IMG/VR virus record: IMGVR_UViG_3300042502_000051
Span: 1 to 43,798 of that record
Origin: a virus
Length of the DNA: 43,798 nt
Reading direction: 5' to 3' (one strand)
Shown here: piece after piece, positions 6,059 to 40,867 of the stretch
Layout: every line of letters begins with the position of its first letter
Position numbering within the stretch: position 1 is the stretch's first letter
Notes under the pieces: model-generated
Told to the model about the DNA's origin: nothing
The model's input: the letters and a program-made list of their open reading frames with translations, nothing else
The model's database searches: none
Made by a program: the position numbers and the translations under genes

Positions 6059-6059
6059 C

Positions 6060-7232: not shown

Positions 7233-7236
7233 ATTA

Positions 7237-7244: not shown

Positions 7245-7248
7245 ACCA

Positions 7249-9186: not shown

Positions 9187-9188
9187 AA

Positions 9189-11144: not shown

Positions 11145-11149
11145 CTTTA

Positions 11150-11470: not shown

Positions 11471-11819
11471 TTTTTTTTTCTTCTTCCTTCTTTACACCTG
11501 TAATGGTGTGGACTGTATTCTCAACGATATATTTTATGTAGTCAATAATTTGACCTTCTTCGCTAAAAATAGACCCCACTTCATCAATCCAATCACAAGC
11601 ATCATCAATAGTGTACTCAACCTCTTGTTTATTACTTACACAAGCAGATTTGTAACCAATGTAAACAAGCTGGACTATTATGTCTAAACTTGTTTGAGCC
11701 GTTGAAAGAACTTTAAAGTACTCATCAATACCGATATTGTTTTGTTTAGTAAACTCACGCATTGCCCAAGTACCCCACTTTAGGTGGATTGTGTTGTTGT
11801 TAGTCTTTAATTCGAACAT
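11445..11819 (-). CDS. Tail assembly chaperone G protein (A)
   Basis: A 124-residue protein between tail tube and tape measure, the usual place of the G chaperone. It begins MFELKTNNNTIHLKWGTWAM and ends in a Lys/Glu-rich tail (KKEEEKKKPNKAKLG) that is the slippage region. The overlapping T frame follows. It should bind the tape measure during tail assembly and be absent from virions. It is nearly identical to module B (41,163-41,537). The family is assigned by context, size and the frameshift architecture. Confidence 0.8.
   Translation of the reverse strand: MFELKTNNNTIHLKWGTWAMREFTKQNNIGIDEYFKVLSTAQTSLDIIVQLVYIGYKSACVSNKQEVEYTIDDACDWIDEVGSIFSEEGQIIDYIKYIVENTVHTITGVKKEEEKKKPNKAKLG
11470..11479 (-). 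promoter_or_regulatory. A10 slippage site for G/GT frame change (A)
   Basis: The mRNA-sense strand carries ten A in a row between GAAGAAG and GCC at the end of the G gene. The run is exactly ten in module B too. Reading into the T frame needs a net +1 change (one A skipped, or -2). Long A runs permit both RNA-polymerase and tRNA-Lys slippage. Confidence 0.75.
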
Positions 11820-11833
11820 AGTTTTTTATTTTA

Positions 11834-12289
11834 TTATACTGGTACTTCAGTTTGAGCAATAGGTGGTACACTTACTACGAAAGTTGCAGTAAATTTAACA
11901 TCATCTTTATCAGCAGCATTAACATTAAAGTTGCTAATAAATACTAAACTTGTAGGAGTTCCACCATAATAAACATCACCTGCTACTGGAGTTGCTCTAC
12001 CCATCTTAATTGCAAATAAAGTCTTTGCAGCGTGAGCATCGTATAATTGTTGGTAACTATCTTTAGATGGAGTTCCTGTTTCATCAATCGCAAAACCTTC
12101 ACACTCAAAAGATTGATTGAATGAAGGACTTGGAGTGTACTGATCTCCACATTTAGAAGTTGCATCAATCGTTCCTAAAGTTGATGTCAAAGAGTTGGTA
12201 GTCAAACAAGCAACAGGCTTGTATGTTCCGTCATTGTTAATGTCAGCTAAGAGGATATAATCTCTTGCGCTTACTTTTGTTTCTGCCAT
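11834..12289 (-). CDS. Major tail tube protein (A)
   Basis: A 151-residue protein beginning MAETKVSARDYILLADINND, then TSTLGTIDATSKCGDQ, SFECEGFAIDETG, a helix with YQQLYDAHAAKTLFAI, and a terminal strand KDDVKFTATFVVSVPP. This order (strand pair, long loop, helix, closing strands) is that of the siphophage tube fold. It is placed between the tail terminator and the G chaperone. Size is within the usual 130-200 residues. It is close to the B copy (149 residues). Confidence 0.8.
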   Translation of the reverse strand: MAETKVSARDYILLADINNDGTYKPVACLTTNSLTSTLGTIDATSKCGDQYTPSPSFNQSFECEGFAIDETGTPSKDSYQQLYDAHAAKTLFAIKMGRATPVAGDVYYGGTPTSLVFISNFNVNAADKDDVKFTATFVVSVPPIAQTEVPV

Positions 12290-12300
12290 TTTATTTTATT

Positions 12301-12708
12301 TTAATTTTGAGTTATGGTTATATTATATGTTATTAATACTCTAAAAACATTATCTAAAGGGTTTAAGCCGTCTAAGTTTCTTACACTTTCAACACTTAAA
12401 CTTGATGCAGTGAATCCGTTTGCCAATGTTATATTGGTGTCCGAATTTATTGCGTTCAAGACTAAATCGCTTATAGCTTCAGCACGTTTATAACCAAAGT
12501 TAGCATTTTTTGTAATAATATCAACTGTGATGCTAATACTATTTGTATAACCTGCTTTGCCTTGATCTTGGCTTGATGTTCTACCTGTCATAACAATATA
12601 CTCATCACCAGCACCTTCAGGAGCAAAACCATCATATACAACCAATCCACTTGCACTTGTCAAGTTAGTATAAAACCACTTCTTTATCTCAATATTAGGA
12701 TTTAACAT
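12301..12708 (-). CDS. Tail terminator / tail completion protein (A)
   Basis: A 135-residue protein starting MLNPNIEIKKWFYTNLTSAS, followed by strands and a helix with GYKRAEAISDLVLNAIN, ending VFRVLITYNITITQN. This resembles DUF3168 / SPP1 gp17-like proteins that cap the tail tube and join it to the head. It overlaps the upstream connector-like gene by 14 nt. The position just before the tube protein supports the call. Family assignment is from pattern and order. Confidence 0.7.
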   Translation of the reverse strand: MLNPNIEIKKWFYTNLTSASGLVVYDGFAPEGAGDEYIVMTGRTSSQDQGKAGYTNSISITVDIITKNANFGYKRAEAISDLVLNAINSDTNITLANGFTASSLSVESVRNLDGLNPLDNVFRVLITYNITITQN

Positions 12709-13237
12709 TCTTCAATACGTTTAATATGTTCTTAATCAATTTAGGCTTTTCTGTTTCAAAAGCTGGTATTAAAAATGGTTGCGGTCGCATACCTTTTCTT
12801 AATATGTTAATAGCTATTGCATAAGCAATCGACTTATCGTTACCTCCACCAATTCCCTTTCTTTTTACCCATAATGTCAAAGCCTGAACCATATCTTTAA
12901 AAGTACCATCCTTTTTGCCTCTAAAACCACTTGCTAATTCCTCAAATCCTTTTGGAATTGAAACCTTTCCACCTGTTCCAAATTCTACATAAGGAGCATA
13001 AGAAGCACTTGCGCCAACAGTAAAAACAAATCCTTTTTCTACATTTTGCTCTTTTAAGTAAATACTATTCCTTAATTGACCAAAGTTTACAGGCGCTAAT
13101 CTTTTTGCTCCTGATTGTATATTTAAAGCTGATGCATTTACTTCATCCTTAACATCTTGCTGAACTTTAGCATCTAAAGTATCAAGTTTCTTAAGAACAT
13201 CTGATAAATTACCTATGTCAAATGTAAAACTTGGCAT
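12695..13237 (-). CDS. HK97 gp10-like head-tail component (A)
   Basis: A 180-residue protein with the hallmark of the HK97 gp10 family: a helical start with VNASALNIQSGAKRLAPV, then LRNSIYLKE, and the strand PYVEFGTGG followed by RPQPFLIPAF near the end. It acts at the head-tail joint or early tail. A ~35-residue segment (about 113-150, containing LWVKRKGIGGGNDKS) is absent from the module B copy. The gene overlaps its downstream neighbour by 14 nt, and its start abuts the stop of the adaptor gene. Confidence 0.85.
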   Translation of the reverse strand: MPSFTFDIGNLSDVLKKLDTLDAKVQQDVKDEVNASALNIQSGAKRLAPVNFGQLRNSIYLKEQNVEKGFVFTVGASASYAPYVEFGTGGKVSIPKGFEELASGFRGKKDGTFKDMVQALTLWVKRKGIGGGNDKSIAYAIAINILRKGMRPQPFLIPAFETEKPKLIKNILNVLKNVKS

Positions 13238-13578
13238 TATCTATAAATTATTAACTCCAAGAACCTATTTTGGTTCTCTACGTTTTTAATTGAATGTATC
13301 GTATATCTTGAACCTTCAACATCAACCTCGTAGGAATCGTTTATGTTAACACCAAAACGAATATAGAGCCTGTTCCTTTGGTCAAATTGTAATTCTGACT
13401 GATCTATCTCACGAACTTGATTATCTGGTCTTAAATCGCCCCAAACAGTCGTTTGTAGGGCAAATATCGTAGTGAACCCACCTTGACCATCACTTGTCCT
13501 TGTTGGAGCATAGATTAAGACCTCACGAGTCATCGTGTTGGCATCTACGTAATTTGCTTTCGCTTTTCCTAACTTCAT
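13237..13578 (-). CDS. Head closure / head-tail joining protein (A)
   Basis: A 113-residue protein of the phage head-tail joining type: MKLGKAKANYVD, REVLIYAPTRTSDGQGGF, TTVWGDLRPDNQVRE, RNRLYIRFGV and YTIHSIKNVENQNRFLELII. The IYAPTRTSDGQGG and NRFLELII parts are typical of SPP1 gp16-like stoppers. A longer frame exists upstream, but the ATG at 13578 is chosen because it gives exactly the length of the B copy (42,845-43,186) and avoids overlap with the connector gene, which ends 1 nt before. Confidence 0.85.
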   Translation of the reverse strand: MKLGKAKANYVDANTMTREVLIYAPTRTSDGQGGFTTIFALQTTVWGDLRPDNQVREIDQSELQFDQRNRLYIRFGVNINDSYEVDVEGSRYTIHSIKNVENQNRFLELIIYR

Positions 13579-13579
13579 A

Positions 13580-14122
13580 TTATAAAATTGGGGATATTCT
13601 AGTCCATCTTTGACACGCTTTCCAAGACTTCTCACAAATACCTGAATCGCCATCTAATCCTCTATTCTCGTAATCGTAGCTGATTTGGTCTAATATAGCT
13701 AACTTAAGGTCTTTAGGGATAGTTGTATAACCAGCCTCATAAGTAGCTTTAAAATTGGCATATCTTGGGAATACTAACTTAGGGAACTCATTGCCTATTA
13801 ATTGTAGGTTTGTTCCTGTAATCTCTAAACCATCTTGCTCCATATCAAACAACTCAAACGTATCAATATCAACTGGACCGAAAGGAATATCAAAGTTGCC
13901 ACTAATATTGTTGAAATATGTAGTGATGTCTTTTGGTATTAAACTCAATCCTGTTGCGACTTCGATAGCTTCTCTTGCTTGTGTAATCATCAATGTAATC
14001 AAGGTATCTTCAGCACTTGTTGTAACACGGCAGTATAATTTTGCCTCTGCTAAAGTAACTGGCTCTACTATTGGTGCGATAGGAACTGCACTAAAGTCAT
14101 TAATATAATTAGAATAAGACAT
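13580..14122 (-). CDS. gp6-like head-tail connector (A)
   Basis: A 180-residue protein with the gp6/YqbG connector signature: EPVTLAEAKLYCRVTTSAEDTLI, then TQAREAIEVATGL, a central beta part, and the helical tail TTIPKDLKLAILDQISYDYENRG. It forms the ring beneath the portal. It is the first gene of the connector-tail-lysis transcript, 13 nt after a promoter-like element and just past the capsid terminator, with an AGGAT ribosome site. The B copy (43,188-43,730) is nearly identical. Confidence 0.9.
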   Translation of the reverse strand: MSYSNYINDFSAVPIAPIVEPVTLAEAKLYCRVTTSAEDTLITLMITQAREAIEVATGLSLIPKDITTYFNNISGNFDIPFGPVDIDTFELFDMEQDGLEITGTNLQLIGNEFPKLVFPRYANFKATYEAGYTTIPKDLKLAILDQISYDYENRGLDGDSGICEKSWKACQRWTRISPIL

Positions 14123-22355: not shown

Positions 22356-22465
22356 AATCTTTTTATTTCAAAATATAGATGTGCGGTTATATAAATGCAA
22401 GAAGCTAAAGGAACGCTAATCAGCATAAACTTTAGCAATTCATAAATAAATGTTAATTGTTTCAT
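22337..22465 (-). CDS. 42-residue single-span membrane protein
   Basis: Directly translated: MKQLTFIYELLKFMLISVPL, then ASCIYITAHLYFEIK and a basic/hydrophobic end. One transmembrane helix. The ATG overlaps the TGA of the upstream 244-residue gene (ATGA), which supports translation. Function unknown. Confidence 0.55.
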   Translation of the reverse strand: MKQLTFIYELLKFMLISVPLASCIYITAHLYFEIKRLCLKYL

Positions 22466-23196
22466 AGTTGGTTTTGTAAAAATAGGTACAAAGTATATCT
22501 TTTGCACTCGTTTTTGATAAATATTTCATTATTTAATTTCTCTAAGTCTTTAGGTGTTTTAGCAGTTACCTTGTAATGTGCTATTATCTTTTTCTTTATT
22601 TGATCTGCTTTCTCTGGACTTAAATTTTCCTTGTTTAATTCCTTTCGTTTCCATAGTACATCAAAAGCCATTGTATTTAGCAACTCCCATCCTCTTTTAG
22701 CAGACTTATCCCAATTTTCGTACAATGCCTCAATAATTTCATCATCTTGGATTTTAGGTATCTCTACTGGTTGCGGTTCTACATAGGTCTTTTGTCTTAC
22801 TTGTAAAGCTATCGGCTTATAAGCTGCCATTACATCACCAAAGAATTTAGGGGTAAACATAATCGCTTTGTCAACTGATAATTTCCCCATTGCGTAAAGT
22901 TCAAAAGCTACTCCAAGTTCCTTTAGTTTAAAGTTTCCGTAATTCTTTATTACAAATTCGCATAAAAACTGAAATAACTCAATTGTAGGTGTTTGACATC
23001 CGCTTAAAGCAATACAAGTCTTTAAATGTTCTTTAACCTCAATCGGTGAGCATCTACTAACACTCATTGTATCTAAAGCAACCACAACCTTTAATTCATC
23101 TGGTTCAAGTTTATTATAGATTTCTAAGTGCATTAGCCTCTCGTTCTGCGTAAGAGAGTTTATGGATTGGGGTAATACTTCGGTTAATGATTTCAT
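22462..23196 (-). CDS. Unknown replication-region protein, 244 residues
   Basis: A helical 244-residue protein. Notable parts: YNKLEPDELKVVVALDTM, a CxxxxGC segment (CIALSGCQTPTIELFQFLC), LKELGVAFELYAMGKL and FTPKFFGDVMAAYKP, followed by a Lys-rich C-terminal half. It lies right after the DUF1376-like replication protein and overlaps it, a place where phages put helicase loaders or inhibitors. No Walker motif is visible, so it is not an AAA+ loader. Unknown function; a replication role is inferred from position only. Confidence 0.6.
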   Translation of the reverse strand: MKSLTEVLPQSINSLTQNERLMHLEIYNKLEPDELKVVVALDTMSVSRCSPIEVKEHLKTCIALSGCQTPTIELFQFLCEFVIKNYGNFKLKELGVAFELYAMGKLSVDKAIMFTPKFFGDVMAAYKPIALQVRQKTYVEPQPVEIPKIQDDEIIEALYENWDKSAKRGWELLNTMAFDVLWKRKELNKENLSPEKADQIKKKIIAHYKVTAKTPKDLEKLNNEIFIKNECKRYTLYLFLQNQL

Positions 23197-23764
23197 CGTT
23201 CCAAGATTTGTTGTTTATAAAGGTTTCTGGGTTTTTACGGAATTGTTTGTCTGGTACTGATTGTTTGTAAAGGTCAATATAATTCATTGCATTTTGCCTT
23301 TCTTCATCGGTTAATTTAATCCACTTCTTTTTTAGCTTTTGCTTATCCCCTACCTTTTTATCATAATCATTCCAAAACCATTCAAAATCTATATTTATAT
23401 TTTCATTTATAGTTATAGTTCTATTTTCAGTTTCAGTTTCCATATGCTTAGCGTATGCTTCGCTAGTGCTTTCTTTTTTAGGTGATTTAGCGTTATTTCG
23501 CCTACTTTCACTAAATTTTTGCCTTCTAATGGTTTCATTATACATTCTATCGTTGTAGTATAAACCATCTTCAACTTTAAATTTATCCCAAATCTCATTA
23601 TCATATGCTTTACATATGCTTAGCATATCCTTTTCACTTAATTTGCCTTTTTGATGTTGTAAGCACAAAAGTCTAATGTATTTACCAACTTGTTCATTAT
23701 CCATTGTAAAAGTGCCACTAAGAAAATCGCTTGTGTAAAATAACACCGCTGGGTCTTTAGCCAT
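23114..23764 (-). CDS. DUF1376/Lin1244-like phage replication protein
   Basis: A 216-residue protein. The N-terminus MAKDPAVLFYTSDFLSGTF, then DNEQVGKYIRLLCLQHQKGKL, is the winged-helix pattern of DUF1376/Lin1244-type replication initiators (lambda O-like role). A Ser/Asn/Glu linker leads to FEWFWNDYDKKVGDKQKLKKKW, a C-terminal helical domain seen in such proteins. A longer frame begins at 23788, but ATG 23764 is chosen because it starts at the conserved residues and lies just outside the terminator-like hairpin. Overlaps the next gene by 83 nt. Confidence 0.75.
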   Translation of the reverse strand: MAKDPAVLFYTSDFLSGTFTMDNEQVGKYIRLLCLQHQKGKLSEKDMLSICKAYDNEIWDKFKVEDGLYYNDRMYNETIRRQKFSESRRNNAKSPKKESTSEAYAKHMETETENRTITINENINIDFEWFWNDYDKKVGDKQKLKKKWIKLTDEERQNAMNYIDLYKQSVPDKQFRKNPETFINNKSWNDEIINRSITPIHKLSYAEREANALRNL

Positions 23765-23770
23765 AAAAAT

Positions 23771-23823
23771 AAAAAAGGCTCTCGGCATCCACCCCAGTAG
23801 GATTAGGGTTTCAGCTTTGAGCC
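23771..23823 (-). promoter_or_regulatory. Structured leader / attenuator-like hairpin before replication gene
   Basis: On the minus strand a GGCTC...GAGCC outer stem (23,819-23,823 with 23,777-23,781) encloses an ACCC/GGGT inner stem (23,806-23,809 with 23,791-23,794), separated by two ~9-nt internal-loop strands, and is followed by TTTTTTATTTTT directly before the ATG. This is a terminator-shaped element in the 5' leader. Either the methyltransferase transcript ends here or the replication gene is attenuated. Upstream sits a perfect 12-nt palindrome TAGGATATCCTA. Confidence 0.5.
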
Positions 23824-23859: not shown

Positions 23860-23891
23860 CAAAAATACTACTTATTTACCATTAATTCAAA
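23860..23891 (-). promoter_or_regulatory. Promoter with both Bacteroidetes elements, replication gene
   Basis: Minus strand: TTTG (23,888-23,891), 20 nt spacer, TATTTTTG (23,860-23,867), matching TTTG and TAnnTTTG at the known spacing. It begins at the methyltransferase stop and would give a leader of about 90 nt containing the hairpin. It is one of the two best promoter matches in the window. Confidence 0.6.
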
Positions 23892-24863
23892 TTCTTGAAT
23901 AGCTTTAAAAATTTGATGTGCAACCTGTGGAACTATTGCGTTTCCGTATGCTTTGATTGATTCGTTTCTCCATTTAGAAAAGGTGATGTTGTCCAGTTCT
24001 CTGGGAAGCCCATCATTTCCTCCACAAACTGGGGGTTTAGTTGGGAAGTAGTTGAAGTCATTCTTTTTATTGTGTCTGGAAGAACCTCCCCATATTTTTG
24101 AGTTTTCCCTGTTAATGTTATTCTCAATCCAGGCTTCGTGCATCCCAAATAATCCCTTTGATTTGGTGTTGGTAACATTCCTTGTCTTGCAAGTTTCGTT
24201 AATGACATTTGATTCTCCGTTGGTGAACCACTCATTTTCCCCCCTTCCGATGCTAATGGAGTTGGTAGCATCATTGAATAGATTTGTGTCGCTAAATTTG
24301 GCATTGTTGTTCCATTCGGATACTTTTCCATTCTTGTTTTGAACTTCTCTAAATCTTGAATGTGTTCCATTGTTGTTGGAGTAAGCAACAAACCAGATTC
24401 TATATCGTTGGTGCGGCGCATTGACACCTGCAGCTGGAATAAGAAACGGTTGGACTTCATAGCCTTCCCTTTCCAAGTCATCACACACCTCGTTGAATAC
24501 CATCCCTCCATTCCAATTAACAAGTCCACGAACATTTTCGCCAATAATCCATCTTGGTTTGACCTCTTTAATGCATCTAAGCATATGTGGAAAGAGGTGT
24601 CTTTCATCGGCTTTCCCAAGTCGCTTTCCTGCACTTGAGTATGGTTGGCAAGGGAATCCTCCTGTGAGGATGTCAACTGATCCTGAGTGAATAGAGAAGT
24701 CTGTTTTAGTAATGTCATTGTAACTAATTGAATTTGGGAAATGATGTTTTAATACTTGTTGACCAAATGGATTCCATTCGCAATGAAATAGATTTTCCCA
24801 TCCCATCCATTCCGCTGCTAAATCAAATCCACCGATTCCGCTAAATAATGATGCGTGTATCAT
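23868..24863 (-). CDS. DNA (cytosine-5) methyltransferase
   Basis: A 331-residue C5 methyltransferase. Motifs in order: I LFSGIGGFD (6-14), IV GGFPCQPYS with catalytic Cys72, VI GENVRGL (Glu109), VIII QRYRIWF, and the C-terminal X block AYGNAIVPQVAHQ. The target-recognition region is long and Asn-rich. It transfers a methyl group from SAM to C5 of cytosine, probably to protect phage DNA from host restriction; no partner restriction gene is seen. It overlaps the HTH gene by ATGA. A 262-codon frame is open inside it in the +1 register. Confidence 0.95.
   Translation of the reverse strand: MIHASLFSGIGGFDLAAEWMGWENLFHCEWNPFGQQVLKHHFPNSISYNDITKTDFSIHSGSVDILTGGFPCQPYSSAGKRLGKADERHLFPHMLRCIKEVKPRWIIGENVRGLVNWNGGMVFNEVCDDLEREGYEVQPFLIPAAGVNAPHQRYRIWFVAYSNNNGTHSRFREVQNKNGKVSEWNNNAKFSDTNLFNDATNSISIGRGENEWFTNGESNVINETCKTRNVTNTKSKGLFGMHEAWIENNINRENSKIWGGSSRHNKKNDFNYFPTKPPVCGGNDGLPRELDNITFSKWRNESIKAYGNAIVPQVAHQIFKAIQEFELMVNK
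23933..24718 (-). CDS. Long overlapping frame inside the methyltransferase gene
   Basis: A 261-residue ATG-initiated frame lying wholly inside the methyltransferase gene on the same strand in the +1 register. It is far longer than other shadows in this AT-rich window and reads like a protein: KMFVDLLIGMEGWYSTRCVM, TWKGKAMKSNRFLFQLQVS, repeated LLTPT/MLPTP motifs, and NPQFVEEMMGFPENWT near the end. From memory, similar strings occur in hypothetical or methyltransferase-annotated phage proteins; I could not check this. Either dual coding or a by-product of constraint on the methyltransferase. Confidence 0.4.
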   Translation of the reverse strand: MTLLKQTSLFTQDQLTSSQEDSLANHTQVQESDLGKPMKDTSFHICLDALKRSNQDGLLAKMFVDLLIGMEGWYSTRCVMTWKGKAMKSNRFLFQLQVSMRRTNDIESGLLLTPTTMEHIQDLEKFKTRMEKYPNGTTMPNLATQIYSMMLPTPLASEGGKMSGSPTENQMSLTKLARQGMLPTPNQRDYLGCTKPGLRITLTGKTQKYGEVLPDTIKRMTSTTSQLNPQFVEEMMGFPENWTTSPFLNGETNQSKHTETQ

Positions 24864-25051
24864 ATTGAATATTGAGCAACTTGCTTCTTATTTTTCAGCT
24901 TAATAATGGTTGTTTTTATATTCATCCCATCATTCCTAAGATCAGCTATTCGTGCTGCTAATCTAAAGCATCCAAACTTGTTTAAAGCATCAATAGGGGT
25001 TAACTTTCTACCCTTATTTAAATAAGATTTAATTTGTTGATTTTGAGACAT
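24860..25051 (-). CDS. HTH_39-like helix-turn-helix protein
   Basis: A 63-residue protein: MSQNQQIKSYLNKGRKLTPI, then DALNKFGCFRLAARIADLRN and DGMNIKTTIIKLKNKKQV. This matches the helix-turn-helix_39 type found in phage early regions. It likely binds DNA, perhaps to control the methyltransferase with which it overlaps by ATGA. The homing endonuclease upstream starts with a similar dozen residues. Confidence 0.75.
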   Translation of the reverse strand: MSQNQQIKSYLNKGRKLTPIDALNKFGCFRLAARIADLRNDGMNIKTTIIKLKNKKQVAQYSI

Positions 25052-25062: not shown

Positions 25063-25566
25063 TTATGCGTAAATTAAAGATGTTTTATTAGTATTATATC
25101 CTAACAAATAACAATAAAGTGTTTGTTTATTTAATCCAAGTAAAGTTGCTGCTTCTTTAGCACTATCATAAAATATACCTGTTTTAGTATCTAAAACAAC
25201 TTTTGAATTAGCTAATCTTGATGCTTTGATATTTTTATTAGTAACTTTTTTTAAGCCAATTTTATAAGCGTGTAACATATTTTGACTTGGAGTTACCCAT
25301 TCAAGATTTTCTATCCTATTATCTGTTTTAATTCCGTTTATATGATTTACTTGTTTATAATTATTTGTATTTGGTATAAATGCTTCAGCTACTAACCTAT
25401 TTACACGAAACTTTTTAATTTGACCTTTATTACATAAACAAACTTGGTAATATCCATAAGCATCTAAAAATGGTTTTAATTTTCGTTTAAATTTGTTATT
25501 TATAACATTACCATCTTTACTTATGCTATAATTTAGGTATTTTGCGATTTGTGTTGTTTGGCTCAT
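25063..25566 (-). CDS. HNH homing endonuclease, early region
   Basis: A 167-residue protein with the HNH core VNHINGIKTDNRIENLEW (73-90) and PSQNMLHAYKIG, and a C-terminal NUMOD1-type helix-turn-helix (YDSAKEAATLLGLNKQTL). The first 12 residues (MSQTTQIAKYLN) match the start of the neighbouring HTH protein at 8 of 12 places, as if it used that gene's start after inserting nearby. Expected to mobilise itself into uninserted relatives. Confidence 0.9.
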   Translation of the reverse strand: MSQTTQIAKYLNYSISKDGNVINNKFKRKLKPFLDAYGYYQVCLCNKGQIKKFRVNRLVAEAFIPNTNNYKQVNHINGIKTDNRIENLEWVTPSQNMLHAYKIGLKKVTNKNIKASRLANSKVVLDTKTGIFYDSAKEAATLLGLNKQTLYCYLLGYNTNKTSLIYA

Positions 25567-30030: not shown

Positions 30031-30633
30031 TTATGCAATACTATTTAAAATCAAATCTGCTTCTTCTTCCCTTCGCTTAACCAATCCATCTAATCCTACA
30101 TTCTCCCAAAGTCTTTTAGACCTTTCTATTTGGTCAGCAATCCCCTCGTAATCAGCTTTAGCCACAAGATTAACAATTGCCCTCATTTCCTTGCGCCTAT
30201 CACCATCTAACTTATTACCCCTGTTATAGATCATTGAAACCAACGCACCTCTTGTGTCCTCGTTTAAAGTATCAAGTTCTGGATATATAGCTTTAGTCAA
30301 AGCATAGTATTTAGGTAGCGACTTATTAACGAACACATCGTATGCAAAATTGTATGGAATCCTAACTTGTAGTATTTCGCCACGCATCATTGATTTAACG
30401 GCTTCTCCTTTTATCCCTACCACTTTTCTTAACGCATTAATAAAGTTTAAATTTAAGCCATCCCAGTCGCTAAAGAACTGCTTTTCGGTTACATAGCCAA
30501 GATCATAGCCGAGACCTATCGTACATCCGCTATCACCTCCAGCCCAAATAGGCTTTTGGTATCTTTTTTCATACACGGCTCTACCTCCGACCTCGTGCTT
30601 AATTATCATTTCAATTGCCTTCTTAGAGATCAT
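30031..30633 (-). CDS. Endolysin, T4-lysozyme/pesticin-like muramidase (module B)
   Basis: A 200-residue lysozyme nearly identical to the module A copy, with Glu14, Thr38 and Asp44 conserved. A longer frame runs upstream from a TTG at 30735, but the ATG at 30633 is chosen: it gives the same length as A and overlaps the stop of the 28-residue membrane gene as in A. Two near-identical endolysins in one window imply recent duplication, exchange or strong constraint. Confidence 0.9.
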   Translation of the reverse strand: MISKKAIEMIIKHEVGGRAVYEKRYQKPIWAGGDSGCTIGLGYDLGYVTEKQFFSDWDGLNLNFINALRKVVGIKGEAVKSMMRGEILQVRIPYNFAYDVFVNKSLPKYYALTKAIYPELDTLNEDTRGALVSMIYNRGNKLDGDRRKEMRAIVNLVAKADYEGIADQIERSKRLWENVGLDGLVKRREEEADLILNSIA

Positions 30634-30716
30634 ATTACTTGATTTATAAAGTAAACTAATCCAATTACCCACAATACAAAACCAATTGCAAATGCTCTTT
30701 TTTCGTTGTTTTCCAT
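30630..30716 (-). CDS. 28-residue single-span membrane peptide of the lysis cassette (B)
   Basis: Counterpart of 1477-1563, found by direct translation: MENNEKRAFAIGFVLWVIGL, then VYFINQVI. It has the same length and the same LWVI/LVYFI/QVI core although other residues differ. It overlaps the upstream stop by one base (TAATG) and the lysozyme start by ATGA. This conserved pattern is the main evidence that the peptide is real. Confidence 0.75.
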   Translation of the reverse strand: MENNEKRAFAIGFVLWVIGLVYFINQVI

Positions 30717-30910
30717 TATTTACTGAATTTATCAATAGTTGTTAAACCTGCAAATGCCATACTCATATAAAAAACTAAATCGCCTAAATGGTCGCTTTTA
30801 GTAATTACAAAAGTTGTATATAAACAAATAGCACCAATAAAAGCCAAAATCCTTTTATGGCTCATAGCACCAACTTCATCACTAAACATTGAAATAATAA
30901 ACTTTTTCAT
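30716..30910 (-). CDS. Holin-like protein, two transmembrane segments (B)
   Basis: A 64-residue protein, close to 1560-1763: FIISMFSDEVGAMSHKRILA, then two hydrophobic segments (FIGAICLYTTFVI and LVFYMSMAFAGL) separated by SKSDHLGD-type polar residues. It is three residues shorter than A. Holin role inferred from topology and its place ahead of the lysozyme. Confidence 0.7.
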   Translation of the reverse strand: MKKFIISMFSDEVGAMSHKRILAFIGAICLYTTFVITKSDHLGDLVFYMSMAFAGLTTIDKFSK

Positions 30911-30911
30911 A

Positions 30912-31445
30912 TTAAAACTTTTTATAGTATCCGAAAGAATATCCGTTCATTGTTGCCGTTGCCGTATATAAGGTGTTTTTAGCCGTTTTAAGTGCAATTG
31001 AACCGCCAATACCAATTTGTCCGTTTGAGTGCTTTAAATCGCCTATAAATCCCAAATAAAGCTGGTTCTTTGACTTTGGCTCTATTAATTTGGTAATTGT
31101 TATGGTTGGTAGGTTAAAATTGGCACTAAAACCTCTGCCTTGTATCTTGTTTTGACTGATTGTGTCTTGAATGTATGCGTATCCAATAGAATCTATGCGC
31201 ATAGTATCGGAATAAACCTTTACTTGGTTATAATCCTTAACGATTGTAATTGTGTCCGTTTCAACTATGTAAATTGTGTCTAAAACTACAAAAGGGATTG
31301 AATTTCCCTTTATAAACTTAGTAAAAGTTTTCTCTTGGTAAACTGTATCAGTTAAGATTACAGGTTCACTTTTGGTGTATCGTGCCTCACTTCCGATAAA
31401 AAAGATTAGAACCGCCACTAATAGAACGATTACTACCTCTTTCAT
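30912..31445 (-). CDS. Membrane-anchored spanin-like protein with outer-membrane-type C-terminus (B)
   Basis: A 177-residue protein, counterpart of 1765-2304. The N-terminal hydrophobic anchor and the last ~50 residues (LYLGFIGDLKHSNGQIGIGG to GYSFGYYKKF) are nearly identical to A, while the middle (about residues 95-125) differs. Selection on both ends fits a protein that must reach both membranes. Spanin-like role is a hypothesis. Confidence 0.6.
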   Translation of the reverse strand: MKEVVIVLLVAVLIFFIGSEARYTKSEPVILTDTVYQEKTFTKFIKGNSIPFVVLDTIYIVETDTITIVKDYNQVKVYSDTMRIDSIGYAYIQDTISQNKIQGRGFSANFNLPTITITKLIEPKSKNQLYLGFIGDLKHSNGQIGIGGSIALKTAKNTLYTATATMNGYSFGYYKKF

Positions 31446-31618
31446 TACTTGAATCTTTTAGTCGCTTTGATGTAATATCTTGCAGCTAAAACTCCAGAAA
31501 TAATAGCAATCAAACTCGCTATTAAAGAAACTATCGGTTGCACATTTGCAACACTAATAAATGCGGATGTTCCGCTAACAATAGTTAATAAGTCCGATTG
31601 ATTGCTATTATGTACCAT
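31445..31618 (-). CDS. 57-residue membrane protein, second holin candidate (B)
   Basis: Direct translation gives a 57-residue protein that differs from 2304-2477 at about two places in the transmembrane helix (IAIISGVLAA). It has the same TAATG overlaps on both sides. Strong conservation compared with the fibre genes suggests a core lysis role. Confidence 0.75.
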   Translation of the reverse strand: MVHNSNQSDLLTIVSGTSAFISVANVQPIVSLIASLIAIISGVLAARYYIKATKRFK

Positions 31619-31761
31619 TACGCTTCAGTTGATTCTTGTGGTGGATTTTGTTCTTGTGCAATTTTGCCTAAATAACCTAAAATTGGATTAGCAAACTTTG
31701 CTGGGATTTCCATTAAATAAGTTTCTAATTCTTTAATCTGCTCTGTTGTTAGCGTTACCAT
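31618..31761 (-). CDS. 47-residue protein opening the lysis cassette (B)
   Basis: Direct translation: MVTLTTEQIKELETYLMEIP, then GYLGKIAQEQNPPQ. Counterpart of 2477-2629, three residues shorter. Its start lies 29 nt inside the end of the GIY-YIG gene, so that gene was inserted directly before it. Function unknown. Confidence 0.65.
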   Translation of the reverse strand: MVTLTTEQIKELETYLMEIPAKFANPILGYLGKIAQEQNPPQESTEA

Positions 31762-32305
31762 TGTTTTTGTTTTTTTTGTTTATATAAAATAACCTTCTTG
31801 ATTCATTCCGTTTTTGTATAGTTTCTATACTTTGTTTTTTACCAATTTTTGCCATAGATAATTTCTTTCTATGTTCTTCGCTTATTGCTCCTAATTTTTT
31901 ACCAGTTCTTGCAATTGACATTTTAAGTCTTGTTTCTTCTGATAATTTATGCCCAGTTCTGCTTTTATTGCCCTTATGAGCAATTGATAGCTTTTTTCTT
32001 GTTTCTTCAGTTATAACAGTTCCAATCGTTCCTTCCCCACCATCAGTTAAGTTTGTTAAAATACCTGTATTATTATTTTTTCTACCATATAAAGCAATAA
32101 ACTCTTTTTCTTTTTTTTGTGCTTCTTTATATGTTAAACCATCTAATAATATTTCAACTTCAATTTCACTTTTAGTTGCTATAATCTTCCAAAGACCATT
32201 TCTGTTATATCTTTCTCTTGACCTATTATATCTTTCATCGTTTCCAATTCCAATATAAAAAGGCTCGTTTTTATCTAATCTAATGTGCCTATATACATAA
32301 GCCAT
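31733..32305 (-). CDS. GIY-YIG homing endonuclease with NUMOD3 repeats (B only)
   Basis: A 190-residue protein with GIY-YIG-type motifs (YVYRH and FYIGIG near residues 3-21, then an Arg/Tyr helix and KEKEFIALYG) and, after ~100, several Lys-rich NUMOD3 repeats (HKGNKSRTGHKLSEETRLKM, SEEHRKKLSMAKIGKK) that bind DNA. Module A lacks it at this place. It sits directly behind the lysis promoter-like element. A mobile element independent of the HNH gene in module A. Confidence 0.9.
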   Translation of the reverse strand: MAYVYRHIRLDKNEPFYIGIGNDERYNRSRERYNRNGLWKIIATKSEIEVEILLDGLTYKEAQKKEKEFIALYGRKNNNTGILTNLTDGGEGTIGTVITEETRKKLSIAHKGNKSRTGHKLSEETRLKMSIARTGKKLGAISEEHRKKLSMAKIGKKQSIETIQKRNESRRLFYINKKNKNNGNANNRAD

Positions 32306-32321
32306 ATTTTAAATTTTAATA

Positions 32322-32329
32322 CAAATATA
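32322..32329 (-). promoter_or_regulatory. Bacteroidetes-type minus-7 element before lysis genes (B)
   Basis: TATATTTG on the minus strand, as at 2647-2654. Here it precedes the GIY-YIG gene (ATG at 32305), which was inserted between promoter and lysis cassette. Conservation of the octamer in the same gap of both modules supports function. Confidence 0.5.
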
Positions 32330-32353
32330 CTTATTATCTAAATATGTTTATAA

Positions 32354-32707
32354 TTATTTCGCAGTTTTAGTTTCTGCAATAGGTTCTTCTACAATAGTTT
32401 CCTCACTAACTGCTTCTTCAATATCTTCTTCAACAATTGGTTCTGGAGTAGGAGGTACATAATCGCCTGTGATTGTAACATCAATTTGAGTTGCAACCCA
32501 ATTGTAAGCATACTCATTTGTTGCCCAACCATTGTAATCTTCGCCTGTCATAGTTAAGTTACCTTCTTGTAATTTACTTTGAGTGTCGCTTAATAAAGAA
32601 TAGTAAAAAGTCGCAGCATTGTTTAAATTGTCATTAATACAATAAGCGTTAAGGATTGTTGCCGTTCCTAAGTTTAGTGGGAATACCACAGGTTGAATTG
32701 TTTTCAT
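32354..32707 (-). CDS. Small fibre-associated protein, unknown family (B)
   Basis: A 117-residue acidic protein: VVFPLNLGTATILNAYCIND, NAATFYYSLL, then GNLTMTGEDYNGWATNEYAY and NWVATQIDVTITGDYVPP, followed by a Glu/Pro-rich tail (EPIVEEDIEEAVSEETIVEE). It holds the place of the 108-residue gene of module A but is not clearly homologous. It resembles phage proteins placed beside fibres; likely a fibre or baseplate helper. Confidence 0.6.
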   Translation of the reverse strand: MKTIQPVVFPLNLGTATILNAYCINDNLNNAATFYYSLLSDTQSKLQEGNLTMTGEDYNGWATNEYAYNWVATQIDVTITGDYVPPTPEPIVEEDIEEAVSEETIVEEPIAETKTAK

Positions 32708-32719
32708 TTTTATTTTATT

Positions 32720-35700
32720 TTAGAATATTTGATAGAATCCACTTCCGTCAGCGATAATAAAGCATCTTGCTTTTGAGGCTAATGTTATAGAGCCAACATC
32801 ACTACCTGCCATATTATAGATAGTAAATCCACTACCTGCTGAAATTGTTTGTGAAAAATTTGATTTGTTTATGACAACATATTGTAAGTTATTAGAACTT
32901 GGACTTGGTAAGGTATAAGTTTGTCCTGAACCTACTGCACCACTAATAATATGATAATAAGTAGCATTAAAAGTTGTACTTGTTGTAACTAATTCTCCTG
33001 TATAAGAAATGTTATTAGCAGTTATAGCACCATTTACTTGTAGCTTACCTTGACCATTATCTGTTGTAGTGTTTACTAATACATTACCAGTAGTATTTAA
33101 ATAAAGTTGATTTCCAGAGCCACCAGCACTAATTAATATTGGTTGATAAGAGCCAGCAAACCTATATGAAGTACCTATTCTAAAAGCACTTCCACTAAAT
33201 CCGAAAAAGGCTACATTATCTGTTGAGTTTTGTTCTATTTGTAATCCACCTCCTCCACCTCCATCTGCAACTTGTTTAACTAAAAGAGTAGTATTTGTAA
33301 AACCTCCAGATGTTGAACTTGTAGTTGTGTTCATTAATACATTACCCCCCGATGTGATTCTCATTCGTTCACCATAACCAGAGCCATTATAAGTTTGAAA
33401 AACTATATCAGCAAAACTATTTGATTGTTGTACTGCTCCTATATATGCCTCTGCTGCTCCGCCTATTCCTAATGAAATACCAGTTGTAATATTTGTACCA
33501 CCAGTACTACTTGGCAATAATCTTAGGTTTGCACCAGTTCCATTATATCCGGTTGGAGCATATGTATTTTGAGACCATCCTCTAACTTGTAATGTGCCAT
33601 CCGTATCAGTTACTGGCCCTATTCTAACTAATCCCGCGCTTGTGATTCTCATTCGTTCGCTTCCGTTATTAGTTTCAAAGATAATGTCAGCGTTTTCTCT
33701 TTGTCTAAATAAAAAGTTTGTTGATTGAAACAATTGACCAATGTAAAAACCATCACTTCCTGTTGTCCCTGTATATGCAGTTTGTAATGATATACCTGCG
33801 TTATTTGTATTGTATACGTTTAAATCATTATTAGCTGTTGCTCCATTTACGTTTACACTACTTGAGAATGTAGCAGCACCATTTCCTGCTATTGTTAATC
33901 TAACTGTATCTGATGTATAAAATTTCAACCAACCTGTTGTATTCTCTCCGTTACCTTCTATTAAACTAAATGCCTGTGTATTAGAATTTCTTTGAAAAGT
34001 TAAATAGCTAATATTAGAAGCATTATTTTTTATTTCTAAGAAGTTACTTACCCTTGCAGTTCCACTAACATCAAGTTTAAAACCTGCGTCTACAGTATAT
34101 CCTATTAATAAAGAACCATATAAAGTAGTTAGTTTTGAACTTGCCGTAAACTCTGCAATAGTTGCATTTTTACCATCTGCAATTACTAAATTTCTAAATT
34201 GAGTTGCTCCGTCATTGTAACCTCTATAATTTATATATCCTGTAGAAGTCTCATTCCTACTATAATTAAAGTTTAAAGCGTTATCAGCAGATAAATAAAT
34301 TCCATATCCTAAATTATTATCTACTTTAAAAGGTATTGGAGCAGCTACTCTATCGTTAGAAATATTTAAAGCACCTGTTAAAGTACCTCCTGTTAAAGGT
34401 AGGTAACCACTTAAAGCACTACCATAATTAGGAATATTAAAAACTCCTGTTGTGCTATTATAAGTTGCAGCACCACTTGAACCTGTTGTGGTCAAGCTAA
34501 TCGCTGCTCTTGCTAAAGCATCCGTATATTGTGTTATTGTAGAACTAATAGCACCTGTTGTGTTATTATAACTAATTCCTGCTCCTGCACTTAAACTTGT
34601 TAAAGTAATAAAGTTAGAACCATTAGTAATTTGATTGTTATTAGTTGGAATCGTAATAACACCTGTTGTAGAGTTATACGCACCGCTTCCTGCCGTAAAT
34701 GACAATGCAGCACGAGCCAACGCATCTGTGTATTGAGTAATTGTTGAAGCTATTGTAAACGAAGGATAACTACCACTAATTGATATCCCTGCACCTGCCG
34801 TTAAAGAAACAGTTTGGTCAGGAGCAGAGTTAGTAATTACACCTGTTGTATTGTTGTAGCTTATTCCTGTACCTGCACTTAAAGAAGTTAAGGTTATAAA
34901 ATTAGAACCATTTGTGATTTGGTTATTATTTGTAGGTATTGTTATTACCCCTGTTGTGCTATTGTAAGCACCACTACCAGCCGTAAAACTTAAAGCTGCT
35001 CTTGCTCTTGCATCCGTAAAGTAAAGGTTTGTATTTTCAGTTACTTGACTTGTATTGTAATCGCCACTTGTAGCTACAACTGCACCTGTTCTACCAAATA
35101 CACTTGTAACCGCATCCGTATTGTCATCAGTCCAAGAAGCAGTTATTGTACCTGCATCTTGTTGTGTTAAAGTTAAAGTCTTTGTTGTAGTGCCTGTTAC
35201 TGCTGCTGAAACAATCATATTGTTATAAGCAGTATTAAAATTAGTCCAATCTAAGTTATCTAAATAACCATCAACTAAACTTGTAGCAGCAGGTATTGAG
35301 ATTGTATTGCTTGTGTTAACTAAAGGAGCAGTAAATGATAATGCAGCTTGTTTGTTATTAAACGTACTCCAATCCGTTGAACTTAACTTACCTGTATTTG
35401 TAGCCGAAGCAATAGGTAGGTTAAAAGTATGCGTATCCCCAGTTGAAACGATTGCGAAGTTTGTACCGCTTGTGCCTGTGGTTAAGAACTGTGATTGATC
35501 TGTTAAGTTATTCAAAGAAACCATCCCCTTAGATAAGGTAGTAACAACTTGACACAAATGACCATTCTCAGTATGTAAAGTAACTGTTCTACCATCTACG
35601 TTTACATAGATTCTAATTGCTAATCTATCCGTTAAAGCTAATGTTGCAGTAGCGACAGGAATAGCGAAATAATAAGGTGCTATTATAGTCCCTTGATTAA

Positions 35701-36175
35701 TATACTCAGGAACTCCAACGCTTGAACCTAATAAGGTAAAAGTTGTGCCGTCGTACTTATAAAGTTCTGCATAGAAGAAAGGGTCACCTGTATTGTTATT
35801 TACACTAAAATAGAACTCACAATTAAAGTTACCGCCAGGTATTGATAATACATCAGGGTCATTAGCATCCGTTAAATAACTTGCCACATATCCTGTTGTT
35901 GAAATAGCAATATCAGTTCCAGCACCTATGATTGGTTCTTTACTTAACTCTCTATAAGCTACCCCACCTATTGTACCTTGACTTACACTTGAGTTAAGAT
36001 AGTAAGAAACCGAACTACCACCACCTGTTGATGTTGGAAAGTCAGCTAACGTACCATCCCCTCGTACATATTGAGAAGCAGCACCATCTAAAGCGGTTAT
36101 TACCCCACTATTAGCCACTACTGGACCTTGTATATCCCTAATCTTTGCTTCGCCTGTTACTTGTAATTGACTCAT
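32720..36175 (-). CDS. Tail fibre / receptor-binding protein without S74 domain (B)
   Basis: An 1151-residue fibre. The N-terminus (LQVTGEAKIRDIQGPVVANSG) is like that of the A fibre; the rest differs. The body has Asn/Thr/Gly-rich repeats, including a 55-residue unit present twice (34,838-35,002 and 34,550-34,714). ERMRITSGGN-type repeats follow. The C-terminal ~75 residues (SGAVGSGQTYTLPSPSSNNL to SGFYQIF) form a beta domain with no S74 catalytic pattern. Probably recognises another receptor than the A fibre. Confidence 0.85.
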   Translation of the reverse strand: MSQLQVTGEAKIRDIQGPVVANSGVITALDGAASQYVRGDGTLADFPTSTGGGSSVSYYLNSSVSQGTIGGVAYRELSKEPIIGAGTDIAISTTGYVASYLTDANDPDVLSIPGGNFNCEFYFSVNNNTGDPFFYAELYKYDGTTFTLLGSSVGVPEYINQGTIIAPYYFAIPVATATLALTDRLAIRIYVNVDGRTVTLHTENGHLCQVVTTLSKGMVSLNNLTDQSQFLTTGTSGTNFAIVSTGDTHTFNLPIASATNTGKLSSTDWSTFNNKQAALSFTAPLVNTSNTISIPAATSLVDGYLDNLDWTNFNTAYNNMIVSAAVTGTTTKTLTLTQQDAGTITASWTDDNTDAVTSVFGRTGAVVATSGDYNTSQVTENTNLYFTDARARAALSFTAGSGAYNSTTGVITIPTNNNQITNGSNFITLTSLSAGTGISYNNTTGVITNSAPDQTVSLTAGAGISISGSYPSFTIASTITQYTDALARAALSFTAGSGAYNSTTGVITIPTNNNQITNGSNFITLTSLSAGAGISYNNTTGAISSTITQYTDALARAAISLTTTGSSGAATYNSTTGVFNIPNYGSALSGYLPLTGGTLTGALNISNDRVAAPIPFKVDNNLGYGIYLSADNALNFNYSRNETSTGYINYRGYNDGATQFRNLVIADGKNATIAEFTASSKLTTLYGSLLIGYTVDAGFKLDVSGTARVSNFLEIKNNASNISYLTFQRNSNTQAFSLIEGNGENTTGWLKFYTSDTVRLTIAGNGAATFSSSVNVNGATANNDLNVYNTNNAGISLQTAYTGTTGSDGFYIGQLFQSTNFLFRQRENADIIFETNNGSERMRITSAGLVRIGPVTDTDGTLQVRGWSQNTYAPTGYNGTGANLRLLPSSTGGTNITTGISLGIGGAAEAYIGAVQQSNSFADIVFQTYNGSGYGERMRITSGGNVLMNTTTSSTSGGFTNTTLLVKQVADGGGGGGLQIEQNSTDNVAFFGFSGSAFRIGTSYRFAGSYQPILISAGGSGNQLYLNTTGNVLVNTTTDNGQGKLQVNGAITANNISYTGELVTTSTTFNATYYHIISGAVGSGQTYTLPSPSSNNLQYVVINKSNFSQTISAGSGFTIYNMAGSDVGSITLASKARCFIIADGSGFYQIF
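34550..34714 (-). repeat. 55-residue fibre repeat, second unit
   Basis: Encodes RAALSFTAGSGAYNSTTG ... SAGAGISYNNTTGA. Identical to the other unit at 53 of 55 residues, but by my count about 43 of the 165 bases differ, nearly all silent. Confidence 0.85.
34838..35002 (-). repeat. 55-residue fibre repeat, first unit
   Basis: Encodes RAALSFTAGSGAYNSTTG ... SAGTGISYNNTTGV. Pair of 34,550-34,714; 123 nt separate the two units. See the finding on silent divergence. Confidence 0.85.
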
Positions 36176-36181
36176 AATATT

Positions 36182-36874
36182 TTATTGAAATAATCCACGA
36201 ATATACTCCCCAGCTTCTAAAGGTCTACCAAAAGTAAGAACCCCAGTTGAACTCACAAACTTAACATCATCACCCGTTGGAGTTCCTGTTGTTAAAATGT
36301 TTTGCGCATCTACACCACCTCTTGAAACGTACAAACAAGCATAACCGATTGTGTCCGCAAAAGTAATTGATGTTTCGCCACCACTTGCCGTGTAACCTTT
36401 TGTCTTAACAGGATTTGAACCTACTATAATCACACCGCTTGGGTCAACCTCCGTTCCTGTTGTATTGTATGCACCTGTACCTTGTAGGCTAATATTGTAA
36501 GTAGCCACATCCTTTTGTGGTGCGTTTATTGCTAAACTTGATATATTACAAGTTCCGTTAATAATTGTCAAACCATCAACTCCGTTATCCACTACGAACT
36601 TAATTTCAATCGGTTCTCTTGCTAACTGCTTTTCTAACATAAACAAATAAGAAAAACCAGTCAAAGTAATTAACCCATCACAAGTAACATTCCAAGTAGC
36701 CACATCATTTTTATATTCTCTAAACCAAGCACTTGATTGGCTTGTTACCTCTTTTTGATCTACGTTTACATTAAACGTACAATTTGTACTACACGCAAAA
36801 GCGACATCAACCTCTGGGTCAACATCTGTTCTATGCCAATAAAGCATTACGTTATTTCCTATTACTGCTGCCAT
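36182..36874 (-). CDS. Tail-tube-like protein located after the baseplate gene (B)
   Basis: A 230-residue protein of the same length as, and highly similar to, 6540-7232, including the tube-like N-terminal part and the added C-terminal domain (YVSRGGVDAQ ... IRGLFQ). Its stop is only 6 nt from the fibre start, showing the uninterrupted arrangement that the HNH gene splits in module A. Probably a tail-tip ring that connects to the fibre; differs from the main tube at 41,553-42,002. Confidence 0.65.
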   Translation of the reverse strand: MAAVIGNNVMLYWHRTDVDPEVDVAFACSTNCTFNVNVDQKEVTSQSSAWFREYKNDVATWNVTCDGLITLTGFSYLFMLEKQLAREPIEIKFVVDNGVDGLTIINGTCNISSLAINAPQKDVATYNISLQGTGAYNTTGTEVDPSGVIIVGSNPVKTKGYTASGGETSITFADTIGYACLYVSRGGVDAQNILTTGTPTGDDVKFVSSTGVLTFGRPLEAGEYIRGLFQ

Positions 36875-36878
36875 ATTA

Positions 36879-36886
36879 CAAATTTA
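36879..36886 (-). promoter_or_regulatory. Candidate internal promoter element (B)
   Basis: TAAATTTG on the minus strand, 4 nt before the tube-like ATG, same as 7237-7244. Conserved, but too close to the ATG for a normal leader. Confidence 0.25.
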
Positions 36887-36891
36887 GTCAA

Positions 36892-39099
36892 TTATCCGAA
36901 TGTTTCTAATATTTCACCTGCTCCGCTAATTCTATAAGCCTGTGAGTAAGTATCTGTAACCAAAACCTTCCACCAAATATTCGCACCATTAAATCCAACA
37001 GTTAAGAACTCACTTTGATAGAAGAAATCCCCAACTGAAGGAACACCAATATCTGCTAAGTAAACAACGTTACCAGTTAAAGGCGCAGCAAGAGCAGCCT
37101 CCTTAGTTAAATAACCATTTGATCTAAAGTGTGAATATCCTGTAACCTCCGATGGCAAGTTATTACTATCGTAAATAGTAGTCATTGTTGTTTCTACATT
37201 CTCTGGATTGATGTCCAATAAAGTAGCCATTATTACATCATTTGGTAAATCCATTGTTGAATTACCTATTATGTAACTTTTATTTTGAACAGTTATTTGT
37301 GCTGGGTCAGTATCGGAAGCCGTTATTCTCATCGCACCGCTAAATCTTCCATCTGTTGTTTCCATACCCATAAAAGAAGCATCCAAGTTAATAATGTTCT
37401 TATTTAAGCAGTTTGAATATTGCTTAACTACTAACTCACTTAAACTTCTATAAATGTCGGTAGGATATTCTTGTCTGTACCAATTCTTTAAGTTTAAACC
37501 TGTTGAGTCGCTTAAAAATCCTCTATATGTAAAAAAGCCATCATTAACATCATTAAAGCCTAAAGCAAGATCAATATCTAAAACATACTCATTTGAATCA
37601 TTGATAAAACTTTCTGTTGTTACTTGTTTAAAGTATGTTTCAACTACTAATTGAAAGTTACTTGCTTCAATAGAACCAACAGTTGATTTCCAATAAGGAG
37701 CAGAATTATCACATAAAATAAGTTCAATACTTAAATCACCTCCTATTGGTAACAAAGGCATAACCAAATCTAAATTTACTTTAGGGTCGGTTGAACTAAA
37801 TGGATAAAAATAATAATGGTCATTGAAACTTGTGTTTACCCATTGTTTATTGTTATCTAAAAATACCGAACTAACCCCATCATCAACTATTATTTTAAGG
37901 ATAAATAAAGCATCTGGTCCACTTGCAGGAACTCCTAATCCAACCACATCCATAGTTAACTTTAGTACATCACTTGTATTTACTTTAGGTAAATTTATAG
38001 GTCTAACTAATGCAGTATAAGGATTTGAAAGGGAATACTCCATAATAAAAGAATTGTATCTTCTATTTGGATATGGCTTTACATAAATTATTCCATCAAC
38101 AAATCTTTCTTCTTCCCAAGAAAAAGCATTGCCTTCTGTTGGGCTTACAACTGTATAATTCTTTAAATCCCAGTTTGTAATATAGTTATTTGGATATTCA
38201 ACTATTTTGTCAAATCTAATCTTATTAAATCCTTTTCTAATTAACTTAAATTGGCTATTATCTACAAAGTATAATCCACTTGTGTTAGCAGCAAAACCTT
38301 CAATATTTCCTGTTGATTCATAAATTGCATCATCAAATACTGTTCCATCACTATTGTAAATAGTAACATAATAAGAATCTTGTGCAAATTGAGTTAAAGG
38401 AACTATGTAAAAGTTTCCTTTTGCTTGAAATAATCTTGAACCAACTGATCTTACAATCTTTGTTAATACTTCAAGACAATTTGTTGCAACTTGATTATCA
38501 TTAATAAAAGTTGCATAATTTATATATGATTGACCTAATGTGTCCGCAGCTGGGTCATCCGTTCTATTATCCATTCCATCCGAATAAAAACTAACTCCGC
38601 TTACAATATCATATTCTAATGGATATTCTAAATTTAATAAAGCAGTCTTTATGTAAAATAAAGCCGTAAAAGTATCAACTAAAGTTGTATCATTAGCAAT
38701 AAAAAAAGGTATTCTTTCTAATATACCTAATCCATCAATAGCATTAAAAGCTAATTGTTTTCTACCTGTTGAAAATACATACTGAACGTTTTCACTTAAA
38801 ACCCATCCTTGCCAATCTAAATTTGCACCACTTAAAACTCTAACAAAATACTTTCTGTCATTCAATGTAGTAAAGTCTGGCATATCTTCTACATTATCAG
38901 TAACATCAATTGCCATACTTAATTGGCTAACATAAATAGGCTCAAAAGTATCATCACTTCTTGGTATGTATTGTATTTGTAAACTTATACAAGGATATTC
39001 TATTATTTCTCCATCATAATCATCCTCATAAATATTAACTATACTTGTTACATCCGATTTAGTTGCTGCCGTTATTCTATATTTAATTTCGTATGCCAT
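36892..39099 (-). CDS. Baseplate / tail-tip protein with extra C-terminal domain (B)
   Basis: A 735-residue counterpart of 7249-9186. Shared: the W-Q-G-W-V-L-S-E-N-V-Q segment, FNAIDGLGILE, CLEVLTKIVRS, NTSGLYFVDNSQ, SDTDPAQI. After residue ~650 it has about 85 residues missing in A (YSHFRSNGYLTKEAALAAPL to FGFNGANIWWKV-like Trp-rich end, then SGAGEILETFG), likely a small beta domain exposed at the tip. It overlaps the tape measure by 1 nt. Probably carries the B fibre. Confidence 0.7.
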   Translation of the reverse strand: MAYEIKYRITAATKSDVTSIVNIYEDDYDGEIIEYPCISLQIQYIPRSDDTFEPIYVSQLSMAIDVTDNVEDMPDFTTLNDRKYFVRVLSGANLDWQGWVLSENVQYVFSTGRKQLAFNAIDGLGILERIPFFIANDTTLVDTFTALFYIKTALLNLEYPLEYDIVSGVSFYSDGMDNRTDDPAADTLGQSYINYATFINDNQVATNCLEVLTKIVRSVGSRLFQAKGNFYIVPLTQFAQDSYYVTIYNSDGTVFDDAIYESTGNIEGFAANTSGLYFVDNSQFKLIRKGFNKIRFDKIVEYPNNYITNWDLKNYTVVSPTEGNAFSWEEERFVDGIIYVKPYPNRRYNSFIMEYSLSNPYTALVRPINLPKVNTSDVLKLTMDVVGLGVPASGPDALFILKIIVDDGVSSVFLDNNKQWVNTSFNDHYYFYPFSSTDPKVNLDLVMPLLPIGGDLSIELILCDNSAPYWKSTVGSIEASNFQLVVETYFKQVTTESFINDSNEYVLDIDLALGFNDVNDGFFTYRGFLSDSTGLNLKNWYRQEYPTDIYRSLSELVVKQYSNCLNKNIINLDASFMGMETTDGRFSGAMRITASDTDPAQITVQNKSYIIGNSTMDLPNDVIMATLLDINPENVETTMTTIYDSNNLPSEVTGYSHFRSNGYLTKEAALAAPLTGNVVYLADIGVPSVGDFFYQSEFLTVGFNGANIWWKVLVTDTYSQAYRISGAGEILETFG

Positions 39100-40862: not shown

Positions 40863-40867
40863 CTTTA

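Follow-up and report, generated by a model that had tools for sequence, protein, structure and literature searches.

Within the C5-cytosine DNA methyltransferase gene of the viral sequence analysed here (IMG/VR record IMGVR_UViG_3300042502_000051; the whole stretch of 43,798 nucleotides is called the window) lies a second long reading frame, and the locus thus raises the question whether one piece of DNA encodes two proteins and, if so, what the second protein does. The large frame is called alpha and the nested frame beta, and the features of the locus are given below with the basis of each assignment in brackets.

23868-24863, minus strand: alpha, the large frame, a C5-cytosine DNA methyltransferase of 331 aa (PF00145, TIGR00675, PHROG 363)
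23933-24718, minus strand: beta, the nested +1 frame of 261 aa, predicted motif-IX/target-recognition subunit (PHROG 1008, purifying selection)
24716-24718, minus strand: ATG of beta, within alpha codons 49-50 (AAT GAC) (fixed alpha third base)
24369-24863, minus strand: alpha residues 1-165, SAM-binding/catalytic core (invariant columns, model, match to M.HhaI)
24054-24368, minus strand: alpha residues 166-270, predicted disorder, purifying selection undetected in the alpha frame (pLDDT, substitution rates)
24044-24388, minus strand: beta residues 111-225, variable region and putative target-recognition region (beta ratio, repeats)
24377-24388, 24257-24268 and 24164-24175, minus strand: LPTP-type repeats of beta (in the variable region)
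23987-24043, minus strand: candidate motif IX in the beta frame, beta residues 226-244, QLNPQFVEEMMGFPENWTT (best hhalign match)
23925-23960, minus strand: motif X in the alpha frame, alpha residues 302-313, SIKAYGNAIVPQ (alignment of the alpha C-terminus)

Beta starts at base 146 of the alpha gene, in the +1 register, and lies entirely within the alpha ORF, giving a fully nested overlap of 786 bases. Alpha matches PF00145 (E 4e-48), TIGR00675 and PHROG 363 (E 5e-72), and the core motifs FSGIGG (motif I), GGFPCQP with the catalytic Cys72, ENV and HQRYRIW stand in invariant columns. The presence of motifs I, IV (PC), VI (ENV), VIII and a GN[AS]V-type X identifies it as a C5-cytosine DNA methyltransferase. 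Altogether alpha holds motifs I-VIII and X, and no motif IX was detectable in it, its C-terminal part aligning with one-chain enzymes at motif X alone (E 1.4e-5). Residues 1-165 resemble M.HhaI both as a profile (E 7e-28) and in predicted fold (Foldseek E 3e-13), and the model is confident there with the exception of short loops, while residues 167-307 are predicted to be disordered (pLDDT about 30).

Beta residues 11-246 match positions 34-282 of the 329 in PHROG 1008 (E 7e-25), a family labelled 'DNA methyltransferase'. No match to beta was found in Pfam or NCBIfam, among known defence-system proteins or, by sequence search with the beta profile, among solved structures, and the AlphaFold model of beta alone is poor, with a mean pLDDT of 47, so that a target-recognition domain finds no support from the predicted fold. 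The original prediction, made from the sequence alone, had stated that comparable strings occur in deposited phage proteins, and rightly so, with the PHROG 1008 match and relatives in 84 deposited phage records (tblastn). The repeat strings that it named are present as LLTP, LPTP and LPTP at residues 111, 151 and 182, and the stretch that it quoted, NPQFVEEMMGFPENW, occupies residues 228-242; its description of the product as Trp-rich was overstated, there being three Trp in beta.

Directly upstream of the methyltransferase gene, and overlapping its start by 4 bases, is a gene for a 63-aa winged helix-turn-helix protein (24860-25051, minus strand; HTH_39, PF14090; PHROG 4973). An HNH homing endonuclease with NUMOD4/NUMOD1 domains (25063-25566, minus strand) adjoins the methyltransferase gene, and a second homing-endonuclease-like gene is located at 31733-32305. 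An overlap of 83 bases in different frames (23114-23196) is found between a replication-protein-like gene (23114-23788) and the gene following it (22462-23196). The window also contains two lysis/tail modules of identical order (878-14122 and 30031-43730), whose paired proteins are mostly 80-95% identical with outliers at 30-64%, and which may represent a chimeric assembly of two related phage genomes or a true duplication.

Beta is a conserved and selected protein-coding gene

The +1 frame of the window is open for 271 codons, including 10 upstream of the beta ATG, and the other forward frame of the alpha gene for at most 32. Synonymous-codon shuffling, with the alpha protein sequence and codon usage kept fixed, gave no run of at least 261 open codons in 20,000 trials (mean longest run 108, maximum 260), indicating that the beta frame is real and no effect of composition; shuffling of codon order gave one such run in 20,000. 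The selection set consisted of 77 alpha genes, namely that of the window and those of 76 relatives, and the +1 frame is open throughout in all of them, with a mean of 7.4 stops in their synonymous shuffles and an open frame in at most 0.1% of these. Over alpha-aligned codons the beta-frame residues show 64% identity to those of the window, where alpha and codon usage would predict 34%, and every one of the 76 relatives exceeds all 300 of its own shuffles in this respect.

Substitutions in 25 independent pairs were classed by their effect on both frames. Among changes that are nonsynonymous in alpha, the omega-like ratio of nonsynonymous to synonymous change in beta is 0.42 (0.34-0.50), obtained by plain counting and not from a full overlapping-gene model, with few doubly synonymous sites, and the same calculation for the +2 frame as control gives 1.85 (1.60-2.18). 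Over the alpha core the ratios are 0.20 for alpha and 0.55 (0.43-0.68) for beta, and in the region of motifs IX and X both frames are at about 0.3. In the variable region (beta residues 118-222) the beta ratio is 0.38 (0.26-0.50), and substitutions that change alpha but are silent in beta occur as often as those silent in both frames (rates of 0.351 and 0.291), so that no purifying selection on alpha is detected there. Positive selection should not be read into the alpha ratio for this region, 1.58, since the silent changes of alpha fall on codon position 2 of beta.

One reading makes beta a mere by-product of alpha, kept open by composition and with a product that is not made or has no function. 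It has in its favour that the +1 frame is generally more open than the +2 frame under shuffling (mean longest runs of 108 and 39), but this reading, to which we assign practically no probability, is already refuted by the open frames of the relatives, where about seven stops would be expected, and by the substitution counts with their clean control frame, and the shuffles, the conserved ATG and a conservation exceeding what alpha dictates all speak against it as well. The frame of 261 codons beginning with ATG that had been noted in the +1 register of the gene is thus borne out at 23933-24718 on the minus strand, and true dual coding, first proposed only as possible, is strongly supported. Stops in close homologues, or substitutions explained by the methyltransferase frame alone, had been named as evidence that would count against it; the frame is uninterrupted in those homologues and the methyltransferase frame alone does not explain the pattern.

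Distribution of the nested pair and the start of beta

In addition to the deposited phage records, relatives of beta were found in 280 IMG/VR stretches in a first scan. Both nested frames are annotated in several deposited phages, among them Paenibacillus phage Tadhana (genes 54/55) and E. coli phage K1ind2 (ORF29/28, with beta annotated as 'Mte8'), and no dual-coding analysis or description of the phage overlap was found in the papers searched. All 85 loci of the first set showed both frames, beta lying at +1 relative to alpha; the frames are interrupted in L022, L023 and L047 and in a few cases cut by contig ends. In a second viral scan, with contigs partly shared with the first set, 80 of 80 loci were nested. 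Bacterial genomes gave 58 loci, in all of which beta is read at +1 relative to an alpha frame, mostly from Bacteroidota with some from Bacillota and Pseudomonadota, a Phycisphaerales bin and one Heimdallarchaeota bin; eight genome copies are decayed, frame-broken or truncated. More distant matches to PHROG 1008 are present in 4 of 250 Bacillota genomes and 15 of 249 Pseudomonadota genomes and are nested in every case where both frames were recognised by the profiles; some weak matches were not recognised as beta, and plasmids yielded only five distant matches. A stand-alone beta outside a methyltransferase gene was sought and not found, every recognised beta being nested in an alpha, and none of the 34 one-chain C5 methyltransferase genes used as controls contains a beta-like frame. 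Lacticaseibacillus phage R9.1 and Porphyromonas phage018a have a separate beta according to their annotation, and upon re-reading it is nested in both.

The start codon of beta is ATG in 77 of 77 genes. The wobble base of alpha that falls within this ATG is T in all 70 distinct genes, and where alpha has Asn at this position the codon is AAT in 56 of 56 cases, against 48% AAT elsewhere in alpha. Shine-Dalgarno signals are located inside alpha just before the annotated start of beta in Tadhana (GGGAGGTG) and K1ind2 (GGAG), and no Shine-Dalgarno-like sequence precedes the beta ATG in the window. The relatives of the window are mostly Bacteroidota and environmental phages, and Shine-Dalgarno signals are often absent from Bacteroidota genes.

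Alternatively, ribosomes translating alpha could pass into the beta frame by programmed +1 frameshifting and thereby make an alpha/beta fusion. The beta frame is already open in the 10 codons 5' of the ATG and the window has no Shine-Dalgarno-like sequence there, both in favour of such a fusion, and at L022:2831-3850 and L023:2831-3850 a frame break does fuse alpha residues 1-119 to beta residues 45-253, leaving alpha residues 118-326 as a separate frame; this break may come from an error in sequencing, or the two halves may have been swapped naturally. However, the ATG is found in every gene of the set and the alpha wobble base that forms it is fixed, phages whose hosts use Shine-Dalgarno sequences have one ahead of it, and a fusion would be without motif X. 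On account of the fixed ATG and of the motif X missing from a fusion, independent internal initiation is preferred, and we regard frameshifting as very unlikely.

Motif IX and the predicted division of the enzyme

When the profile of beta is compared with that of one-chain C5 methyltransferases (hhalign), its best match is motif IX, with QLNPQFVEEMMGFPENW against R-LT-RE-aRLQGFPD. The score is 27.6, whereas none of 200 column permutations exceeded 20.6. The match is a short one of about 22 columns, with an hhalign probability of 5-15%, and depends on this permutation control and on its position. The motif (LNPQFVEEMMGFPENW) is found only in beta, and its distance to motif X in alpha is 18.7 codons in 49 of 49 measurable genes, where one-chain enzymes have 16-18 residues. 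From motif VIII in alpha to motif IX in beta the median is 123 codons (77-219), against 97-132 in one-chain enzymes. Since motif order and spacing match across the two frames, the DNA is co-linear with that of an ordinary one-chain enzyme, and the target-recognition part and motif IX would thus sit in the other frame of an otherwise normal enzyme order.

The variable region of beta has from 0 to 4 LPTP-type repeats among the relatives, and their number correlates with length (r = 0.66, 114 sequences), which suggests that the region may be a modular recognition region. The strings ATNS and VTNT, repeated in the variable region of alpha, are the shadow of these repeats in the other frame.

We consider it very probable that the gene encodes, in two frames, the two polypeptides of a C5-cytosine DNA methyltransferase split in the manner of M.EcoHK31I, with beta as the small subunit; judged from sequence, beta is most likely the missing half of the enzyme of alpha. 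Motifs I-VIII, forming the core for SAM binding and catalysis, and the C-terminal helix of motif X would come from alpha, and motif IX together with the target-recognition region from beta, started independently at the ATG inside alpha. Alpha and beta are expected to bind each other and assemble into one methyltransferase, the DNA target of which would be set by beta. The phage setting, and the fact that no endonuclease of a restriction-modification pair was recognised next to the methyltransferase gene, point to a role as an orphan phage methyltransferase that may shield the phage DNA from host restriction.

A real protein overprinted in the methyltransferase gene but with a separate function, for instance in anti-restriction or regulation, is in our opinion improbable. 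Such a function would agree with the lack of Pfam or NCBIfam matches and of a solved relative, with the low-confidence structure and with the N-terminal 110 residues, which are unlike any part of a methyltransferase. Beta is however never seen without alpha, it carries motif IX at the normal distance from motif X of alpha, and alpha for its part shows neither motif IX nor constraint in the recognition region. By-product, separate anti-restriction protein and frameshift fusion are all ranked below the split enzyme. The original prediction had suggested an unknown companion of the enzyme, for example a specificity or an anti-restriction factor; the former fits, as beta carries motif IX and a constrained target-recognition region, the latter is unsupported, and the companion is not unknown, belonging to PHROG 1008 and resembling the M.EcoHK31I alpha/beta pair.

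The split enzyme may have originated through frame changes on both sides of the target-recognition/motif IX segment, which shifted this segment out of frame. More tentatively, a reciprocal frame change could have split an ordinary C5 methyltransferase in place, carrying this segment into the +1 frame; beta would have acquired a new N-terminal part that overprints the catalytic motifs, and alpha a disordered, unconstrained linker replacing the recognition domain, with beta as a specificity subunit of 0-4 LPTP-type modules and the double reading fixed across several bacterial phyla and their phages; this fuller scenario we regard as possible, with the odds somewhat against it.

Comparison with known systems

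The split kind of methyltransferase is already known from a few bacterial enzymes and has rarely been examined in phages. The pairs of Tadhana (genes 54/55) and K1ind2 (ORF29/28), which belong to PHROG 1008, have a homologue of beta nested likewise at +1, but at 27-29% identity. The one-chain enzymes M.HhaI and M.HaeIII share sequence and predicted fold with alpha residues 1-165, whereas their recognition region and motif IX are within the single chain.

The small chain of M.EcoHK31I has 176 aa, compared with 261 aa for beta, and its coding sequence lies in a different frame within that of the large chain, as beta does here. Of the two polypeptides that make up M.EcoHK31I (YGGCCR), the large one bears motifs I-VIII and X and the small one motif IX (PMC3404938), the distribution also seen at the present locus; the comparison covers motif distribution and nesting. 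The predicted TRD of M.EcoHK31I has been placed in the large subunit (PMC3404938), whereas the constrained recognition region is in beta here, and M.EcoHK31I is a member of a restriction-modification pair, whereas the present gene is a phage orphan. M.AquI (CYCGRG) is likewise a C5 methyltransferase of two polypeptides, but is split C-terminally with both motifs IX and X in the small subunit (PMC3404938), while motif X stays in alpha here.

A nested overlap of 786 bases, with both proteins under purifying selection and the register unchanged in phages and in genomes of several bacterial phyla, makes this an unusually clear case of natural dual coding, and the selection pattern assigns jobs to each frame region by region. 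If the split enzyme is correct, annotations of these common phage enzymes that list alpha alone describe half an enzyme, and alpha expressed by itself would fail or be without specificity. For enzymes of the M.EcoHK31I type as a class, the data suggest that the target-recognition region should be reassigned from the large to the small subunit.
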